Source: an uncultured Clostridia bacterium
GTDB taxonomy: Bacteria > Bacillota > Clostridia > Oscillospirales > Ruminococcaceae
Length of the DNA: 15,200 nucleotides
Direction: 5' to 3'
Assembly (NCBI GenBank): GCA_947175045.1
Contig: CAMWLH010000015.1
Span: 1 to 15,200, forward strand
Part shown: in pieces, positions 1-12,010 of the stretch
Layout: each line of letters starts with the position of its first letter
Position numbering within the stretch: position 1 is the first letter of the stretch
Notes under the pieces: model-generated
What the model was told of the DNA's origin: nothing
Database searches by the model: none
The model's input: the letters and a program-made list of their open reading frames with translations, nothing else
Made by a program: the position numbers and the translations under genes

Positions 1-247
1 CTTTTACAGAGGCTTGCGAAAAATTTTCCTGCGTGGGCGGAACGTCGCTGTTTGCTTATGTTGCTTTTCCGCGCAAACGACGCTTTGCGTCGTTTGCGCT
101 AGCCTCTCTGTAAAAGCTCCGCTCCACTTCATTCCGCTGCGCTTTTACAGAGGCTTGCGAAAAATTTTCCTGCGTGGGCGGAACGTCGCTGTTTGCGTTG
201 CGTTGCTGCGCGGGCTTTATGTTGAGTTGGGCTTACACCCCTTAATA
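1..247. repeat. Structured intergenic repeat, copy A, with a 141-bp tandem period
   Basis: Positions 1-55 recur exactly at 142-196, so the window opens inside a tandem array of 141-bp period. The unit holds a perfect 13-bp hairpin (71-83 with 87-99, 3-nt loop). A second hairpin follows (102-116 with 142-154), whose left arm carries two extra bases. Both are bracketed by a weak outer stem (about 65-72 with 157-162). After the outer stem come degenerate units starting TGCGTGGGC or TGCGCGGGC (30, 171, 207). The region ends at the stop codon of ppk, so it is the 3' flank of that leftward gene. Related copies lie at 6789-7060, 8287-8560 and 11810-12010. No open frame here looks like a protein. Whether it terminates or stabilises the ppk transcript is not known. 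Confidence 0.85.
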
Positions 248-3052: not shown

Positions 3053-4684
<1,632 letters not shown>

Positions 4685-4693
4685 TCAGAAGCA

Positions 4694-4714
4694 AGAGTCA
4701 AGAAGCAAGACTCT
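4694..4714 (-). promoter_or_regulatory. Hairpin in the pyrG leader
   Basis: AGAGTC and GACTCT pair as a 6-bp stem around a 9-nt loop within the predicted pyrG 5' leader, next to a short direct repeat of GAAGCAAGA. No U-tract follows. Leader control of pyrG by reiterative transcription and attenuation is known in Bacillus, but the predicted transcript here does not visibly begin with the GGGC-type start used there. A regulatory role is therefore only a possibility. Confidence 0.35.
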
Positions 4715-4739
4715 ACCGTTATTCTACCATATTTAATTC

Positions 4740-4768
4740 ATTATACCACTTTTCGCGGTTTATTTCAA
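4740..4768 (-). promoter_or_regulatory. Sigma-A promoter of pyrG
   Basis: On the minus strand TTGAAA (4763-4768) and TATAAT (4740-4745) are separated by exactly 17 bp, with TGG just before the -10 box giving an extended -10. The transcript would start near 4733 and give a leader of about 65 nt before the pyrG start codon. Confidence 0.85.
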
Positions 4769-4824
4769 GAGCTATTTCCCGAAATGCGCAAAAAGATGGA
4801 CAAAAGATAAAAAGGCAAATATAA

Positions 4825-4877
4825 CAAAAGAAAAAGAGGTAAGAATCCGAACTCTTACCTCTAGCTTCTTACCTCTA
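4825..4877 (-). terminator. Rho-independent terminator of rpmB with a duplicated left arm
   Basis: On the minus strand a perfect 10-bp stem (4853-4862 with 4835-4844) closes an 8-nt loop containing TTCGG. It is followed at once by TTTTTCTTTTG, a classic terminator 18 bp after the rpmB stop codon. The left-arm sequence TAGAGGTAAGA is present twice: 4867-4877 repeats the arm, so either copy could pair with the right arm. This stops rpmB transcripts before the pyrG promoter. Confidence 0.9.
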
Positions 4878-4879
4878 AA

Positions 4880-5068
4880 TCAAACCGCTCTCTGAACAAG
4901 ACCCGAGCGCAGGCAGCGAGTGCAGGCGTTTACTCTGCAGGGAGTGCCGTTCACTATCGCTTTAACCTTTTTTACATTCGGCTTATAGGTTCTGTTGCTG
5001 CGTCTGTGAGAGTGAGATACCTTGATACCGAAGGATACGCTCTTGCCGCAGATTTCACATTTTGCCAT
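4880..5068 (-). CDS. rpmB: Ribosomal protein L28 (bL28)
   Basis: Large-subunit ribosomal protein of 62 residues. The start MAKCEICG, the SHSHRRSNRTYKPN segment (18-31) and the C-terminal NACTRCLRSG (47-56) are typical. Cys4, Cys7, Cys49 and Cys52 are arranged as a four-cysteine zinc site, the zinc-binding form of L28. An in-frame GTG nine bases further upstream is possible but rejected: family members start at MAKC, and the AGGTAGGTG ribosome binding site overlaps that GTG. The gene has its own sigma-A promoter and terminator, so it is a single-gene unit. Confidence 0.96.
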   Translation of the reverse strand: MAKCEICGKSVSFGIKVSHSHRRSNRTYKPNVKKVKAIVNGTPCRVNACTRCLRSGLVQRAV

Positions 5069-5114
5069 TTTTAGCACCTACCTCTCTTTGTGTAGTTTTT
5101 CAGTAACAAGAAAC

Positions 5115-5145
5115 ATTATAACACATTCGCCTTGAAATTTCAAGG
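5115..5145 (-). promoter_or_regulatory. Sigma-A promoter of rpmB overlapping a 16-bp palindrome
   Basis: On the minus strand TTGAAA (5138-5143), a 17-bp spacer and TATAAT (5115-5120) form a strong sigma-A promoter, starting transcripts near 5108 and giving a leader of about 40 nt before rpmB. The -35 box lies inside a perfect 16-bp palindrome, CCTTGAAATTTCAAGG (5130-5145), which could be an operator. On the plus strand the same palindrome is followed by a T-rich run and would look like a weak terminator, but no plus-strand gene needs one. Confidence 0.85.
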
Positions 5146-5211
5146 GTTTTATTTATTTATCTTCATTTTTGTGCAATTTTACCATAACCCCGACCGCTTT
5201 CACGCCGATTT

Positions 5212-5730
5212 TCAGCCGTTTATACTTGCATAGTATACGCCCCGCCCTTTGTCTATCTGCGTTACTTGGTTTTGTATCATAAATGTTTTGTAGTGATTTT
5301 CATGTATATACGCAGGGACGTCGTTTATCTGTACCTCTATTGTATAGTTAATGTTTAAATAGCGACCGCCGTCGCGGTCAAAATCGAACAGCCCCGTATA
5401 ATCTGCGGAGGACGGTGTGTCCTGTCCCCCGGCTATTGCAGCTATACGCTCCATGCCTTCCTGTGTTATAAGCCCGTTTTCGTCCACATAGGGTATACTG
5501 TCGAGAGCGCTCTCCGGGCTCTCCTGCTCCCCTGTTTTGGGAGTCATCTCGCGGGAACGCTCCGTTGTTTCATTGTCGGAGTTTTCCGCGGTTTCGGGCG
5601 CGGACTGCTCCGCCGTTCCATAGTCAAACTGCTCCAAAACGCTCTCCGAAACGCGGCTTTCGGGAGCTCCCTTGCACCCCGAAAGCAATACCGCTGTCAA
5701 TACCGAAAATAAATACAAAGACTTTTTCAT
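5212..5730 (-). CDS. Predicted lipoprotein of unknown function
   Basis: 172-residue predicted secreted lipoprotein. A basic N-terminus (MKK), a hydrophobic core and the lipobox LLSGC place the lipidated cysteine at residue 19. Residues 20 to about 75 are a Glu/Ser/Thr-rich, disordered-looking linker. The C-terminal part (about 76-172) is more regular, with VDENGLITQEG and a short strand-rich segment near the end (LNINYTIEVQI, 124-134). I do not recognise a family. The start has GAGG nine bases upstream and lies 32 bp after the trpS stop on the same strand. The gap holds no terminator, so it is probably read from the trpS promoter. No clear terminator was seen after it. Confidence 0.8.
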   Translation of the reverse strand: MKKSLYLFSVLTAVLLSGCKGAPESRVSESVLEQFDYGTAEQSAPETAENSDNETTERSREMTPKTGEQESPESALDSIPYVDENGLITQEGMERIAAIAGGQDTPSSADYTGLFDFDRDGGRYLNINYTIEVQINDVPAYIHENHYKTFMIQNQVTQIDKGRGVYYASING

Positions 5731-6761: not shown

Positions 6762-6788
6762 GTTTCCTCCTGATTTTTATCAAAATTT

Positions 6789-6871
6789 GCAGCGCGCTGT
6801 GATGCTTTTAAGCAGTGTTGACAAAAATTTGTTTTTTATGTTGACGAGAATTAAATGATTTAAAAGAATTT
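6789..6871 (-). promoter_or_regulatory. Conserved upstream block, copy 1 (trpS)
   Basis: Begins 27 bp upstream of the trpS ATG and is closely matched by 8287-8375, which begins 23 bp upstream of the aminotransferase ATG. The two ends are nearly identical: GCAGCGCGC, TGCTTTTA and CAGTGTTGACA on one side, ATGTTGACGAGAA and TAAATGATTTAAAAGAATTT on the other. The AT-rich middle differs in sequence and length. The heptamer TGTTGAC occurs twice in each copy. No confident sigma-A promoter is visible on the minus strand. A shared promoter or regulatory region is possible; the end of a mobile repeat is equally so. Confidence 0.6.
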
Positions 6872-7060
6872 CAAAATTCCCGCAAGCACGTTCCGCTCAC
6901 TGCGTTCGCTTCACGTGATTGCGCGAACCGGATATATCAATCCCCGGACGGGATTGATATCGAATTTTCTGCGAAAATTCCGACTCTTTTTGAAATTCCG
7001 CTGCGTGGGCGAAACGCTGCTCTCTGCGAGCATTGCTTTTATGCGTGGGCGATTTGCCGA
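6866..7060. repeat. Structured intergenic repeat, copy B (diverged)
   Basis: A perfect 11-bp outer stem (6866-6876 with 6988-6998) encloses three hairpins. The first is 6881-6891 with 6913-6923 (one mismatch in 11). The second is 6934-6944 with 6950-6960 (perfect 11 bp, 5-nt loop). The third is 6962-6969 with 6973-6980 (perfect 8 bp, 3-nt loop). It is followed by two TGCGTGGGC units (7002 and 7041) that run up to the 3' end of the aminotransferase gene. The stems share little sequence with copies A, C and D, but the plan is the same. It fills most of the 308-bp gap between trpS and the aminotransferase gene. Confidence 0.75.
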
Positions 7061-7069
7061 CATCTTCTT

Positions 7070-8263
7070 TCAGAGCCCCAACTGTCTTGCGACACTGCCC
7101 AATATCTTAACGCCCTGATCTATCTGCTCGTCCGTGGGAGTGCTGAAATTCATTCTGAACGACCTGCTCACGGCGCTCTCGTCCGCGGCAAACGCGCTGC
7201 CCGGAACTACCGCCACCTTATTCCTCACCGCCTCGGCGCAGAACACGTTCATATCCTGCCCCTCAGGGAGCGTTCCCCAGATAAACAGTCCGCCCTGCGG
7301 CTCCGTAAGCGTTATGCTCTCGGGGAGCTCGCGGCGCAGTCCGTCTCTCATCCGCAAGTATTTCGCCCTGTAAATGCCGCGCAGCCGCTCCAGGTGCTCC
7401 CCGAAATCCACCTCTTTCAAGAACCGATATGTAAGCATCTGCGCCCATATGTTGGTATGCACCGTGCTGGTCTGCAAGCCGACTACCGCTTTCTTTACTA
7501 TCTCCTCGCCGCCCAGCAGATACCCCACTCTCAGCCCCGGGGCGAGCACCTTTGAAAACGTACCCGCGTACAGCACAACGCCCTCGTCGTCCAGCTCCTT
7601 TATCGACGGCACGTTATCTCCCTCAAACCTCAGATCGCCGTAAGGGTTATCCTCTAAAATATACACGCCGTACTTTTTCGCCAGCGCCAGCATTTCACGG
7701 CGGCGCTTAAGCGTTGACGTAAGCCCCGTGGGATTCTGAAAATTCGGTATAGTGTATATCAGCTTCGCGGTCGGATTGGCTTTCAGAGCCGCCTCCAGCC
7801 CCTCCGCGCTCATGCCCTCTCCGTCCATCGGCACTCCCGCAAGACGTACTCCGTAAGAGCGAAAAGCGTTCAACGACCCTATAAACGCGGGATCTTCGCA
7901 AATTATCACGTCGCCCTCATTAAGCAATATTTTCGCCGTGGTCTCAATAGCCTGCTGCGCCCCCGCGGTCACTACCACCATATCGCCCGCGTTGAACAAG
8001 CCCTTTTTGGCAAGATCATCTTTGAGCCGCCCGCGCAGCGGTGCGTAGCCCTCCGTCACCGAGTACTGCAGCGCGTTTATCGGCTCCTCCGCCAGAATTT
8101 GCGCCGAGAGCTTCTCCACCGTCTTTACGGGGAACGCCTCCGGCGCGGGATTCCCCGCCGCAAAGCTGATAACCTCGGGGTCTGCCGTGAACTTCAATAT
8201 CTCCCTTATCGCCGAGGGCTGAAGCCCCGACACTCTGTCCGAAAACGGTTTTAGCATCTTCAT
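7070..8263 (-). CDS. PLP-dependent aminotransferase, class I/II (LysN/MocR-like branch)
   Basis: 397-residue fold-type I aminotransferase using pyridoxal phosphate. Visible family features are the N-terminal SFAAGNPAPEAFP segment (33-45), NPTG (177-180), Asp205 and Tyr208 in ILEDNPYGD, the Schiff-base lysine Lys238 in AGTFSKVLAPGLRVGY, and the substrate-carboxylate arginine Arg370 in SRSFRMNF. The sequence resembles the branch holding 2-aminoadipate and aromatic aminotransferases and the catalytic part of MocR regulators; it has no DNA-binding domain. The amino donor and acceptor cannot be decided. Two starts are possible: the first ATG has AGGAG four bases away, the ATG at codon 3 has it ten bases away. 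It lies between two copies of the structured repeat. Confidence 0.92.
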   Translation of the reverse strand: MKMLKPFSDRVSGLQPSAIREILKFTADPEVISFAAGNPAPEAFPVKTVEKLSAQILAEEPINALQYSVTEGYAPLRGRLKDDLAKKGLFNAGDMVVVTAGAQQAIETTAKILLNEGDVIICEDPAFIGSLNAFRSYGVRLAGVPMDGEGMSAEGLEAALKANPTAKLIYTIPNFQNPTGLTSTLKRRREMLALAKKYGVYILEDNPYGDLRFEGDNVPSIKELDDEGVVLYAGTFSKVLAPGLRVGYLLGGEEIVKKAVVGLQTSTVHTNIWAQMLTYRFLKEVDFGEHLERLRGIYRAKYLRMRDGLRRELPESITLTEPQGGLFIWGTLPEGQDMNVFCAEAVRNKVAVVPGSAFAADESAVSRSFRMNFSTPTDEQIDQGVKILGSVARQLGL

Positions 8264-8286
8264 GTATCTCCTAATCCATAAAAATC

Positions 8287-8375
8287 GCAGCGCGCGGTAA
8301 TGCTTTTAGGCAGTGTTGACAAGGAGCCGTTTATATGTTTATATATGTTGACGAGAAGTAAATGATTTAAAAGAA
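8287..8375 (-). promoter_or_regulatory. Conserved upstream block, copy 2 (aminotransferase gene)
   Basis: Partner of 6789-6871 with the same conserved ends and a longer AT-rich middle. It lies 23 bp upstream of the aminotransferase start. On the plus strand TTGACA and TTATAT are 17 bp apart here, but the other copy lacks a matching -10, so I do not call a promoter. The block runs directly into the outer stem of repeat copy C. Confidence 0.6.
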
Positions 8376-8560
8376 TTTTCCGCACCGCTGCCAACGACGC
8401 CTTGCGTCGTTGGCGCTAGCCCGCCGTAAAAGCTCCGTTTCACTCCGCTTTCACGGCGGCTTGCGGAAAATTCATGCGTGGGCTTTATGTCGCTCTTTAT
8501 CTGTGTTGCTTTGCTGCGTGGGCGCAGCGTTTCTCTATTTACTGCGCGGGCTGTCCGATC
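8373..8560. repeat. Structured intergenic repeat, copy C
   Basis: A perfect 12-bp outer stem (8373-8384 with 8462-8473) encloses two hairpins. One is 8390-8400 with 8404-8414 (perfect 11 bp, 3-nt loop). The other is 8421-8432 with 8448-8459 (11 of 12 paired). Three units follow, starting at 8475 (TGCGTGGGC), 8515 (TGCGTGGGC) and 8543 (TGCGCGGGC), and run to the fprA stop. Against copy A both hairpins carry paired substitutions that keep base pairing. Confidence 0.85.
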
Positions 8561-8561
8561 A

Positions 8562-9716
8562 TTAATTCATAAGCTCCTGCGCCAGAGCCTCGACCTGCGC
8601 GGTGCTCTCCGCGTTCAGCGCGGACTTGATAGTTACAGTGGTATCCGTGAACGTTATATTCTTGCTCTTTTCAAACGCCGCCTTGATGACCTTTGCCGCC
8701 ATAGGCGCCCAGCTTCCGTTCTCTATGATTCCGACAGTCCTGTTCTGATAATTCCGCTCGGTCAAATGCGCAATAAACTCCCTCATAAACGGGAATATTT
8801 CCGCATTATAAGTCGTAGTCGCGAGAACCAGCTTTCCGTAACGGAACGCGTCACCGACCGCATCCGCCATATCCTCACGCGCAAGGTCTGTAACCACGAC
8901 ATTGGGGCAGCCCTTTTCCCGGAGCTTTTCCTCCAGCAGCATAACCGCCTTTTTTGTATTGCCGTACACCGAGGTATACGCTATCACTACGCCCTCCGAC
9001 TCAACGCCGTATCCCGACCATGTATTGTACAAGCCCAGATAATATTCAAGATTTTCCGTCAGCACGGGACCGTGCAGCGGGCATATCGTTCGTATATCCA
9101 GCGCCGCCGCTTTTTTCAGCAGCGCCTGAACCTGCGCGCCGTATTTTCCGACGATACCGATATAATAGCGCCTTGCCTCGCACGCCCAATCCTCGTCGAC
9201 GTCCAGAGCGCCGAATTTACCGAAAGCGTCCGCGGAAAATAATACTTTATCAGCATCGTCATATGTCAAAACGACCTCGGGCCAATGCACCATAGGCGCG
9301 GTGACAAATGTGAGCGTATGCTTTCCGAGCGATAACGTATCTTTCTCCCCCACGACCTCCTGCTTGTCCGCATAGTCCGTGCCAAAAAACTGCCCCATCA
9401 TCTCAAACGCCTTTTTTGATGCGGCTATCTTCGCATCGGGATAGGCTTCGACAAATCTCGCGATATTAGCGGAATGATCGGGCTCCATATGCTGAACCAC
9501 CAGATAATCGGGCTTTCTGCCGCCGAGAGCCTCTGAGAGATTTTTCAGCCACTCGTCCCCGAAGTTCCTGTCCACCGTATCCATTACTGCGATTTTCTCA
9601 TCGAGTATCACATACGAATTGTACGCCATGCCGTTGGGTACGGCGTACTGTCCCTCAAAAAGATCTAACTTGTGGTCGTTGACTCCCACATACCTAATAT
9701 CCTCCGAAACGTTCAT
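8562..9716 (-). CDS. fprA: A-type flavo-diiron protein (oxygen/NO reductase)
   Basis: 384-residue cytoplasmic flavo-diiron protein that reduces O2 to water, or NO to N2O, protecting anaerobes. The N-terminal metallo-beta-lactamase-like domain (about 1-240) carries the diiron ligands His76, Glu78, Asp80 and His81 in QHMEPDH, His144, Asp163 in SADAFG, and His215 in CPLHGP. The C-terminal flavodoxin domain (about 243-384) has the FMN phosphate loop YTSVYGNTKK (247-256). No rubredoxin or reductase domain is fused, so electrons come from a separate partner. AAGGAGG lies eight bases before the start, and a perfect sigma-A promoter lies upstream. Whether O2 or NO is the main substrate is not readable. 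Confidence 0.95.
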   Translation of the reverse strand: MNVSEDIRYVGVNDHKLDLFEGQYAVPNGMAYNSYVILDEKIAVMDTVDRNFGDEWLKNLSEALGGRKPDYLVVQHMEPDHSANIARFVEAYPDAKIAASKKAFEMMGQFFGTDYADKQEVVGEKDTLSLGKHTLTFVTAPMVHWPEVVLTYDDADKVLFSADAFGKFGALDVDEDWACEARRYYIGIVGKYGAQVQALLKKAAALDIRTICPLHGPVLTENLEYYLGLYNTWSGYGVESEGVVIAYTSVYGNTKKAVMLLEEKLREKGCPNVVVTDLAREDMADAVGDAFRYGKLVLATTTYNAEIFPFMREFIAHLTERNYQNRTVGIIENGSWAPMAAKVIKAAFEKSKNITFTDTTVTIKSALNAESTAQVEALAQELMN

Positions 9717-9856: not shown

Positions 9857-9910
9857 TTACAGACGGCGTGATACGCCGCCAAAAACAGAAACATAATACT
9901 CCGCACCCAA

Positions 9911-9960
9911 ATGTCAAAAAGAGTCGGAATTTACACAGAAAATTCCGACCGGTTCACGCA
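9911..9960. repeat. Hairpin fragment related to copy B, inverted
   Basis: GTCGGAATT and AATTCCGAC form a 9-bp hairpin (9924-9949). The left part, TCAAAAAGAGTCGGAATTT (from 9913), is the reverse complement of a stretch at about 6974-6992 in copy B. Further along, CCGGTTCACGCA resembles the reverse complement of GCGCGAACCGG there. It is thus a short, inverted piece of copy B placed in the dpaA upstream region. Confidence 0.65.
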
Positions 9961-10025: not shown

Positions 10026-10850
10026 ATGAACAAATTTCTTTTTATAGGCGGCGACAAGCGAATGGAGTACGCCGCGGACTATATATCAAGGGTATATCCC
10101 GTTGACAGGTTCAATGGCGGAGATATGCCCGAGGGAAGATATGAATACATCGTCCTGCCGCTGCCCGTCAGCCGTGACGGAGCCCACATAAACGCTCCGC
10201 TTTCCGAAAAGCCGCTGCCATTTGAGCTTATATCTCAGTACGCGGCGGAAAACGCGGTGGTTTTCTGCGGAGGCGCCAACAGCGCGGTCGATGAAATCTG
10301 CCGCGAAATGGGTCTGAAATGCATAAATTATTTTGCCAGCGAGCCGCTAACGCTTAAAAATGCCGTACTTACAGCCGAATCCGCCGCGGCTATACTGGCG
10401 GACAGCAACGATTCCTCGCTGCTCGGTTCAAGTGTGGTTATCACGGGCGGCGGACGCGTCGCAGTCTACACGGCGCGCCTTCTGAAGGCTTTCGGAGCCT
10501 CCGTCACACTTTGCGCCAGAAGTGCGGAGCAGCGAGCTAAAGCGGAGCTGGACGGTTTTTGGGCGGCGGACATAGAAGAGCTGTCCGCCGTCTGCGGAAA
10601 GGCGGATTTTGTGATCAACACCGTTCCCGCGGAGCTTTTTGATACGGGGGTATTCTCCTCCATGAAACGCGGCGCGGTTTATCTCGAGCTTGCCTCGCTC
10701 CCGCCCGAGCCTTACAGAAGCCTCGCGGAGCAGCACAGGGTGAAGTATATCCACGCCCCGGGGCTGCCCGGAAAGTACTCCCCCAAAACCGCGGGGGAGA
10801 TCATCGCCGAAACAATACTTGCAAATGCGGACGATCCGCGTTTATTTTAG
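10026..10850 (+). CDS. dpaA: Dipicolinate synthase subunit A
   Basis: Subunit of the enzyme that oxidises the lysine-pathway dihydrodipicolinate product to dipicolinic acid in the mother cell during sporulation, also called SpoVFA. It has 274 residues, close to the usual length of about 290. A Rossmann-type NAD(P) fold begins near 134 (SSVVITGGGRVAVYTARLL), with GGGRVA in place of the more usual GxGRVG. The C-terminal GLPGKYSPKTAGEIIAETI (246-264) is a strong family signature. GGGAGA lies seven bases before the ATG. dpaB follows 43 bp downstream on the same strand. The gene indicates genetic potential for endospores. Confidence 0.95.
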   Translation: MNKFLFIGGDKRMEYAADYISRVYPVDRFNGGDMPEGRYEYIVLPLPVSRDGAHINAPLSEKPLPFELISQYAAENAVVFCGGANSAVDEICREMGLKCINYFASEPLTLKNAVLTAESAAAILADSNDSSLLGSSVVITGGGRVAVYTARLLKAFGASVTLCARSAEQRAKAELDGFWAADIEELSAVCGKADFVINTVPAELFDTGVFSSMKRGAVYLELASLPPEPYRSLAEQHRVKYIHAPGLPGKYSPKTAGEIIAETILANADDPRLF

Positions 10851-11613: not shown

Positions 11614-11787
11614 TTATTCTTCGTTCGCCGTTGTTTCCTCCAGCGCTTCCGCATTTTTGCGCGGTATCTTGTTAAGCAGTCTGTTTAGCGGCGTGAAGAG
11701 CACTATTGCCACCGACAGCAGAACTGTCCCCACCGCTATTCCCGCGAACAGTACGCCGCGGACCACACTTCCCTTTTTGCCTTCCAT
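11614..11787 (-). CDS. Small single-span membrane protein, unknown function
   Basis: 57 residues. The short basic N-terminus (MEGKKGS) leads into one hydrophobic segment (about 10-32), then an amphipathic stretch NRLLNKIPRKN and an acidic tail EALEETTANEE. The N-terminus is probably inside, but the loops give only weak charge evidence. The start is set by AAGGAGG five bases upstream; a longer in-frame reading back to 11868 would run into repeat copy D and is rejected. I do not recognise a family. Repeat copy D begins 23 bp upstream of the start. No clear sigma-A promoter was seen. Confidence 0.72.
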   Translation of the reverse strand: MEGKKGSVVRGVLFAGIAVGTVLLSVAIVLFTPLNRLLNKIPRKNAEALEETTANEE

Positions 11788-11809
11788 GTGCGCCTCCTTA
11801 TTTTGATCT

Positions 11810-12010
11810 GAAATTTTCCGCACCGCACACTCAACCGCTGCGCGGTTGAGTGTGCTATCTCGCCGCAAAAGCTCCGTTTCGCTGCGCTCAACTCCGCTTT
11901 CACGGCGGATTGCGGAAAATTTCCTGCGCGGGCGTTACGTTGCTCTTTTTTTAGCGCTGCTTTGCTGTGTGAGCTTTATGGTCGCTCTTTGCGGTCATTG
12001 CTTTTCCGCA
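11810..12010. repeat. Structured intergenic repeat, copy D
   Basis: A perfect 13-bp outer stem (11810-11822 with 11911-11923) encloses a perfect 14-bp hairpin (11825-11838 with 11842-11855, 3-nt loop) and a second hairpin of CGCCG with CGGCG and AAAG with CTTT (about 11861-11907). The 14-bp hairpin has a different sequence from those of copies A and C but the same place and loop size. Units starting TGCGCGGGC (11925) and TGTGTGAGC (11966) follow. The conserved upstream block of copies B and C is absent. Confidence 0.85.

Follow-up and report, generated by a model that had tools for sequence, protein, structure and literature searches.

A dispersed family of structured elements, probably mRNA leaders, lies directly upstream of ribosome-binding sites in one genus of uncultured Clostridia

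The window, which is the whole stretch of 15,200 nucleotides that was analysed and one entire contig (C15) of its assembly, contains three copies of an intergenic element on its minus strand. Copy C (8372..8483; 128 bits with covariance model R1 and 113.9 bits with model R2) comprises the end of a 5' tail and a three-way junction. Its outer stem P1 is formed by 8462..8473, the 5' arm in the RNA sense, and 8373..8384, the 3' arm. P1 encloses the hairpin P2 (8418..8461), which has an internal loop, and the hairpin P3 (8387..8416), whose stem is perfect except for one bulged base and has a 3-nt loop. The arms of P1 were assigned from sequence and fold, P2 also from the pair counts by helix, and P3 from sequence and the P3 statistics given below. 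We number the hairpins in this order because the RNA sense is the minus strand of the window, where P2 comes first; in the initial annotation, P3 was the first hairpin and P2 the second.

Both flanks of copy C are repetitive as well. At 8474..8545 (minus strand, ends approximate), its 5' tail consists of repeats with units like GCCCACGCAGCAAAGCAACGTAAAGAGC, recognised from the repeats D1, D3 and D6 and from the tails of other copies. A tail of imperfect repeat units (GCCCACGCAGCAAAGCAACG..AAAGAGCAACGTAAA) lies 5' of most copies in this genome, for example at 8474-8545 and 11934-12010, and fills the gap to the upstream gene; in other species the tails differ. On the 3' side, the distance from copy C to the start codon of an aminotransferase gene is 108 nt. 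This space is taken up by an alternative 3' module (8280 to about 8371-8378, minus strand), delimited by the direct repeats D7 and D8 (88% and 93% identical), which recurs at 6782-6871 of the window. The module is made up of CTCGTCAACAT .. TGTCAACACTGC .. GCGCGCTGC and can sit between an element and a start codon; letters like CTCGTCAACAT are also found 3' of elements in genome G049.

Copy D (11810..11933, minus strand; R1 125.4 bits) has its 3' end 22 nt from the ATG of a small ORF (11614-11787). Its P2 lies at 11857..11910, and its P3, at 11825..11855, has 14 bp and a 3-nt loop and is unrelated in sequence to the P3 of copy C. Copy D ends in a ribosome-binding block, TAAGGAGG (11793..11800, minus strand), ahead of the start codon at 11785-11787, as recognised from the listing of junctions and the block counts given below. 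Copy A (62..179, minus strand; R1 89.9 bits) was assigned from its fold and context and has a degraded outer stem. It lies 68 nt downstream of the ORF at 248-2419, and its own downstream gene would lie beyond the contig end. The contig end truncates a tandem neighbour of copy A, which remains as a piece at 1..38 on the minus strand (R1 E 0.00056), and window positions 1-55 and 142-196 are 100% identical.

The window also holds a leader element of a second class with a different fixed motif, at about 6866-7005, upstream of trpS. In this class II, an outer stem GAATTTCAAAA/TTTTGAAATTC is combined with AAAAAGGTC[hairpin]GACCGGTT, a second hairpin and an end that is like AAATCAGGAGG or consists of the same 3' module. 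With shifted duplicates and two chance matches discarded by eye, class II has 11 places, among them L036, L087, L111, L285, L286, L288, L290 and L294 in the own genome, L195 in G049 and L078 in G018. Furthermore, positions 9902-9945 form a 44-nt inverted match (86%) to 6962-7005, which is possibly the remnant of a class II element upstream of the gene at 10026. The leader at 3539-5257 of locus L292 is a relative that lacks a second hairpin, with a tandem duplication that by eye appears to start and stop at the ribosome-binding block; these duplication ends hint at a natural boundary of the unit.

The three copies fold better than expected from their composition. With 200 dinucleotide shuffles, the z-scores on the plus strand were -8.4 for copy C, -5.8 for copy A and -7.5 for copy D, and on the minus strand -7.2 for copy C and -8.6 for copy D; for each of these five strands tested, none of the 200 shuffles folded as well. 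The initial annotation had proposed that all three share the three-way plan, and this is true of copies C and D but only partly of copy A, because most of one half of its outer stem is lost and its best fold does not include that stem. The paired changes that it had read between copies are present in the sequence. Between copies A and C, an A-T pair is replaced by C-G in the first hairpin (GCAAACGACGC vs GCCAACGACGC and their partners), and a T-A by G-C and another T-A by C-G in the second. Between copies C and D, the outer stem gains an A and a T on opposite arms, and the first hairpin of copy D is indeed a stem of 14 bp with a 3-nt loop.

The observation is thus real, and it is far bigger than three copies. 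The own assembly (G000) comprises 2.55 Mb in 443 contigs and is 78% complete. A BLAST search with copy C found at least 50 places at E<0.001 when 40 of 130 candidates were scored. A covariance search with Infernal, the check that had been proposed with the initial annotation, gave at least 135 matches at E<=0.01 with 150 of 2152 candidates scored, some of the matches being short or weak pieces. This search used model R1, built from 27 copies; the wider model R2 was built from 46 copies of several species. For counts within the own genome we used a set of 129 distinct copies: of 189 R1 matches, the top 150 entered an alignment (A3); its final 19 rows, consisting of antisense echoes together with weak or truncated matches, were excluded and 2 duplicates were merged. 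Two weak matches (C121, L158) lie outside this set.

Some copies occur in tandem arrays, namely at L015 (C257), L055 (C244), L028 (C253) and L027 (C1) with a period of 155-193 bp, and at 1-196 of the window with a period of 141 bp. Some units are identical, and one tandem pair on C253 differs by a paired change from C-G to A-T in P3. The initial annotation had set selection on structure against simple copying. This opposition was mistaken: the copies are tandem, dispersed and apparently exchanged.

In the larger alignment (A5, 46 rows), 38 of the 40 pairs of the fold show double changes. The number of double-change cells is 437, compared to a mean of 110.7 in shuffles that preserve the make-up of columns but not the relatedness of rows, and none of 500 shuffles was as high. 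Likewise, 97.3% of the cells can pair, compared to 68.5% in the shuffles and 34.5-42.4% when the partners are slid; all of these values lean toward structure because the alignment was fitted to it. Classing the folds by RNAfold alone kept only 16 of the 129 own copies, probably because the tail forms a small hairpin, and the alignment counts are used here instead. Whereas the helices vary, the letters of the junction recur, mostly as AAGC .. GCTA .. GGT; a paired variant, from G-C to T-A, is found in copy D and in genomes G006 and G023.

RNA tolerates G-U pairs but not A-C pairs. Among the 129 distinct own copies, G-U cells outnumber A-C cells on the sense strand by 269 to 56, with 95:13 in P1, 156:29 in P2 and 18:14 in P3. 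When each copy is used once (36 disjoint pairs), the one-sided changes that lead to G-U and A-C number 17:2 in P1, 28:17 in P2 and 6:4 in P3, and under this count the strand bias of P2 by itself is weak. Since G-U exceeds A-C, the folds of P1 and P2 are probably maintained at the RNA level, with the minus strand of the window as the sense strand. Mutation linked to transcription could be an added source of the G-U bias. For P1 and P2, selection on structure, which the initial annotation had left open between DNA cruciform and RNA, can thus be narrowed to RNA on one strand.

P3 behaves differently. When nearest own copies are compared, double Watson-Crick changes relate to one-sided changes as 42:16 in P3 and as 43:125 in P1 and P2 together (p 5e-10, which is overstated because copies recur in pairs). 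These ratios are based on the 107 of 129 rows with at least 95 letters and leave out 9 other double and 3 other single changes. With disjoint pairs, the ratios are 36:16 in P3 and 43:97 in P1 and P2 (11 other double changes left out). Furthermore, 59 of the 75 perfect P3 hairpins of at least 6 bp among the 129 own copies have loops of 3 nt, and these loops occur as reverse complements on the same arms: arms with CGTTGC carry AAA in 3 copies, TTT in 4 and TCT in 1. Template switching is described to make paired changes and inverted loops (the available part of PMC8794818), suggesting that those of P3 result from templated changes of the DNA. Paired change in P3 alone is thus no evidence for selection on an RNA structure, as there is no G-U bias, the changes are mostly double and the loops occur in both orientations. 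P3 loops of the form G-N-A, however, prefer the sense strand (20 of GAA, GCA and GGA, vs 2 of TTC), which counts against a purely DNA account of P3. A further 33 copies have no such perfect hairpin, and in 21 of the 129 copies P3 is missing or shorter than 14 nt; P3 therefore looks like an optional module.

Should the same explanation be extended to the whole element, template switching in palindromes would have produced its covariation as a by-product of mutation, and its fold would have no function. Such an extension, well as it suits the changes and loops of P3, appears highly improbable, because one-sided wobble changes are numerous in P1 and P2 and have a strand bias, the letters of the junction recur, and the position of the elements is tied to start codons.

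This position is the main point of our analysis, and it is invisible from the window alone: the elements have a fixed orientation and lie directly upstream of a ribosome-binding site. Genes were called with a small caller based on codon scores, trained and tried on the ORFs of the window. Among the 129 distinct own copies examined, a downstream gene was called for 114, of which 108 share its strand, and an upstream gene for 116, of which 105 share its strand. The start codon follows 17-25 nt past the element in 73 of the 108 same-strand copies. The other 35, to which copy C with its 108 nt belongs, include distal members of tandem arrays and copies that, like copy C, have another module behind them. 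In G018, where seven regions were picked around model hits, 23 of 23 copies are on the strand of the downstream gene and 20 of the 23 lie 15-30 nt from its start; in G051, all 15 copies with a called gene (16 examined) are on the same strand, 14 of them at 15-30 nt. Among 26 copies from other species, 21 are on the same strand, 4 on the opposite one and 1 is without a called gene; 12 of the 26 lie on the same strand at 15-30 nt.

Many of the 3' junctions end in AAATAAGGAG, AAATCAGGAG or near variants, and the letters past them are unrelated. In G018, the ribosome-binding block precedes 18 of 22 starts with an element compared to 2 of 72 starts without (p 1.4e-13), and in a sample of the own genome 7 of 11 starts with an element compared to 10 of 256 without. 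Several of these 10 starts carry, as judged by eye, other folded leaders that the model missed. In two control genomes, the block was found at 0 of 113 and 0 of 129 starts (242 in all). Judging from these counts, the element brings its own putative ribosome-binding site, and we regard the elements as predicted mRNA leaders. Scanning gene starts thermodynamically for a helix that closes near the start codon was too loose for this purpose and did not cleanly separate own from control genomes: helices that close at least two hairpins were found at 33 of 137 own starts, 23 of 53 in G018, 18 of 92 in G016 and 9 of 79 in G058, among starts with enough intergenic space. Among folds with z below -3.5, the plan was seen by eye only in the own genome and in G018.

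Promoters were considered by motif only. Across species, a TTTACA..TATAAT stretch is found upstream of the aminotransferase gene. In G021, which lacks an element at this place, about 61 nt separate the stretch from the gene; the corresponding distances in G018 and G051, where elements intervene, are about 362 and 394 nt. Long aminotransferase leaders that by eye have no such element are also found, of about 446 nt in G020 and about 320 nt in G048; a long leader of this gene is not special to carriers of the element. By eye, G018 and G051 share two further conserved promoter-like stretches, which lie upstream of elements.

We scanned 20 of the 76 downstream proteins of the own genome whose genes start 15-30 nt past an element. 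Their functions are mixed, and three are without a match. Among them are trpD, a GerW spore protein, a PcrA-like helicase, a relative of carboxynorspermidine synthase, MurG, GlmU and a RadD-like helicase; an MBOAT protein, a class II tRNA synthetase, NadA, ribosomal protein L10, a MatE protein and glycoside hydrolases; and an amidohydrolase, the N-terminus of GlgB and a DUF1934 protein. No common theme or regulon was seen among these 20 proteins. This bears on the idea of a global switch, where the conserved junction would bind a metabolite or an RNA-binding protein and thereby control translation or early termination of many genes. A leader position with a conserved structure, and a ribosome-binding site that follows soon after the closing stem, are features that such a switch shares with riboswitches. 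However, riboswitches serve coherent sets of genes, whereas the proteins scanned here are functionally unrelated and some genomes have more than 100 copies. Furthermore, the ribosome-binding site lies outside the fold, and in the neighbourhood of copy C (8200-8620), the only copy scanned for this, there is no sense-strand GC-rich hairpin followed by a run of T as in an intrinsic terminator. We consider a global switch to be quite improbable; what keeps it in consideration is that the junction letters recur while the helices vary.

To describe the distribution of the family, we used R2 on 43 genomes of the genus. Matches were found in 17 of them, the own genome included; 12 of these have at least 11 matches and 5 have one to three. 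The number of matches is at least 137 in G018 and at least 128 in G051, each from 150 scored candidates. No matches were found in the other 26 genomes of the genus, or in 400 kb of the same-genus controls G016 and G058. On a tree of 30 of the 43 genomes, presence is patchy. This patchiness and the 26 genomes without a match show that the genes can do without the element. Outside the genus, R2 matched 0 of 196 other genomes drawn from the order and 0 of 196 other genomes drawn from the family, the latter including two element-free genomes of the genus; for these draws, 18 candidates per genome were scored under stricter filters, so that a few diverged copies could escape. An element-rich genome should have shown under these settings, because the own genome matched with 18 of 18 candidates. 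The family is thus known so far from one genus only. The relatives of the aminotransferase in the window belong to uncultured Oscillospiraceae and Ruminococcaceae genomes assembled from metagenomes, several of which are apparently from herbivore guts. As to carriage by phages or plasmids, an exact pattern had 0 matches in viral contigs, and plasmid records likewise gave 0; both searches relied on own-genome letters, which diverged copies would escape.

In order to see how the elements change in place, we compared a stretch of 18-19 kb in G018 with its counterpart in the sister species G051, where collinear blocks are 88-95% identical. An element adjoins a gene at six sites of G018, and at five of them the model also has a hit in G051; at the sixth, upstream of the gene at 17365, only a remnant is seen by eye. 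However, the elements at orthologous sites have a mean identity of only 61% (range 43 to 85%, six comparisons, with one site counted with both of its G018 tandem copies), which is the identity of unrelated copies (62% within G018 and 61% across the two species, highest 82%). The case with 85% is the gene starting at 2556, where P2 was replaced as a block and P1 and P3 are almost unchanged. As this value exceeds that of every unrelated pair, the site keeps some of its history, and turnover is not complete everywhere. Most of the compared copies fold to the same plan; the G018 copy at 5349-5473, whose outer arms are mismatched, does not. Site and plan are thus kept while the letters are exchanged, probably via recombination among copies.

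An unlikely explanation, although not as improbable as a global switch, is that the family is a selfish small mobile DNA element of the MITE or REP kind. The fold would then be needed as single-stranded DNA for movement, and insertions would survive only where a ribosome-binding site is restored, which would produce the bias in position and orientation. Its many near-copies, tandem arrays and patchy presence are typical of such elements, P1 forms terminal inverted repeats of about 11-13 bp as in MITEs, and P3 behaves at the DNA level, with loops of mostly 3 nt. On the other hand, the G-U bias follows the RNA sense strand, site occupancy is mostly conserved between the two species, and orientation is nearly fixed: MITEs insert in either orientation, whereas here 108 of 114 copies have one orientation relative to the downstream gene. 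No consistent target duplication is seen at the ends of upstream genes; an insertion with duplication of the ribosome-binding site, hinted at by one leader of G051, was not borne out there either. For one gene, the filled leaders of G018 and G051 could be set beside the unfilled leader of G021, and these are too diverged for the ends to be read. Among transposases we searched for the Y1 family (PF01797), the RAYT type that accompanies REP and BIME repeats, and it is not tied to the elements: 10 of the 12 element-rich genomes, some of them incomplete drafts, have no match (G018, G051, G048 and G049 are without one), and the other two are G006, with a full-length match, and G000, with a fragment that contains a stop. 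A Y1 transposase as the mobiliser is thus unsupported.

The explanation that we favour, and consider probable, is that the elements are a family of dispersed mRNA-leader cassettes whose fold would insulate or stabilise the start of the gene. By comparison of the copies, a typical cassette consists, towards the gene, of the 5' tail, the three-way junction of P1, P2 and P3, and an A/T-rich linker whose end is a block such as AAATAAGGAG, immediately followed by the start codon. On its other side lies the preceding gene or a promoter-like stretch, so that transcription of the gene should include the cassette as leader or intercistronic RNA. In the mRNA, the fold would immediately precede an open ribosome-binding site and would shield the downstream gene from ribosomes that arrive from upstream, and also from 5'-to-3' decay or processing coming from there, so that each gene would get a standard, protected translation start. 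Since the cassette seems to carry its own ribosome-binding site, its gain or exchange may be tolerated, and this tolerance would let copies spread by recombination among the many copies present. We infer this function as the simplest one that fits the position, the orientation, the own ribosome-binding site, the lack of a regulon and the indifference to the letters of the helices. A selfish origin of the family is compatible with it.

A stronger version, which we put forward tentatively and hold to be possible but doubtful, is that these leaders make up a genome-wide system of portable translation leaders, where a junction with its own ribosome-binding site stands immediately before the start codons of unrelated genes and is continually exchanged, whole or hairpin by hairpin. 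If this is true, portable leaders would standardise the translation start of more than 100 genes, and all of these genes could respond to one trans-acting factor. Repeats dispersed in bacterial genomes are commonly taken as tolerated parasites with loose orientation and position. Here, a repeat would have become, or at least appears to behave as, a standard mRNA leader with its own ribosome-binding site before unrelated genes. As its copies are apparently exchanged rather than inherited in place, it offers a testable case of selection on an RNA plan and not on a sequence. Furthermore, one family combines two routes to covariation, by wobble steps in P1 and P2 and, apparently, by template switching in P3. 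This bears on the question of when covariation proves RNA function, and it is a rare natural record of how paired changes originate.

Lastly, we compared the family with known systems. Rfam 15 gave 0 matches at the gathering score in the window and in loci L163, L159, L031 and L200. CRISPR-DR20 overlaps part of copy C (P3) with E 0.51, which we regard as a chance match to a palindrome. Among the open-licence papers listed by our literature searches, none describes this family, judging from the title and the start of the abstract. Like the BOX, RUP and SPRITE elements of Streptococcus pneumoniae, the elements are small, interspersed, structured repeats with many copies, and BOX is likewise modular with an optional internal module (PMC3049150, in the part of its text available). 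However, BOX, RUP and SPRITE are reported to be overrepresented between convergent genes, and that part of the text describes no spacing to start codons, whereas 108 of 114 copies of the present family point the same way as the downstream gene, and most have a ribosome-binding block and lie 17-25 nt from the start codon. ERIC/IRU and YPAL of enterobacteria are small intergenic elements that are co-transcribed with neighbouring genes, and ERIC affects mRNA stability depending on its orientation; no docking at a ribosome-binding site is described for them in the part available of PMC2229807, whose text does not use the term Shine-Dalgarno.

Two further likenesses come from a survey of non-coding RNAs in 50 genomes (PMC11109978, part of the text). 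Its mobile or repeat sequence candidates (MRSC) are structured motifs with dozens of copies per genome and strong covariation; they are recognised partly by inconsistent orientation and a transposase-type association, whereas here the orientation is consistent and there is no link to Y1. Its dauA-type riboswitch candidates have a Shine-Dalgarno-proximal three-stem junction, which resembles our three-way junction in a leader beside the ribosome-binding site. However, the ribosome-binding site forms part of the dauA junction, which is found before a single kind of gene, whereas in the present family this site lies outside the fold and the downstream genes are unrelated. P3 resembles RNA hairpins that are maintained by template switching, with simultaneous compensatory changes and inverted loops (PMC8794818 and PMC8604942, each as far as available); in the rRNA data of the former, the combination of compensation and loop inversion is extremely rare, whereas here inverted loops recur within one repeat family. 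Compared by description, the nearest known kinds are thus the small interspersed structured repeats, from which this family is set apart by its locked orientation and spacing, its attached ribosome-binding block and the exchange of its helices.
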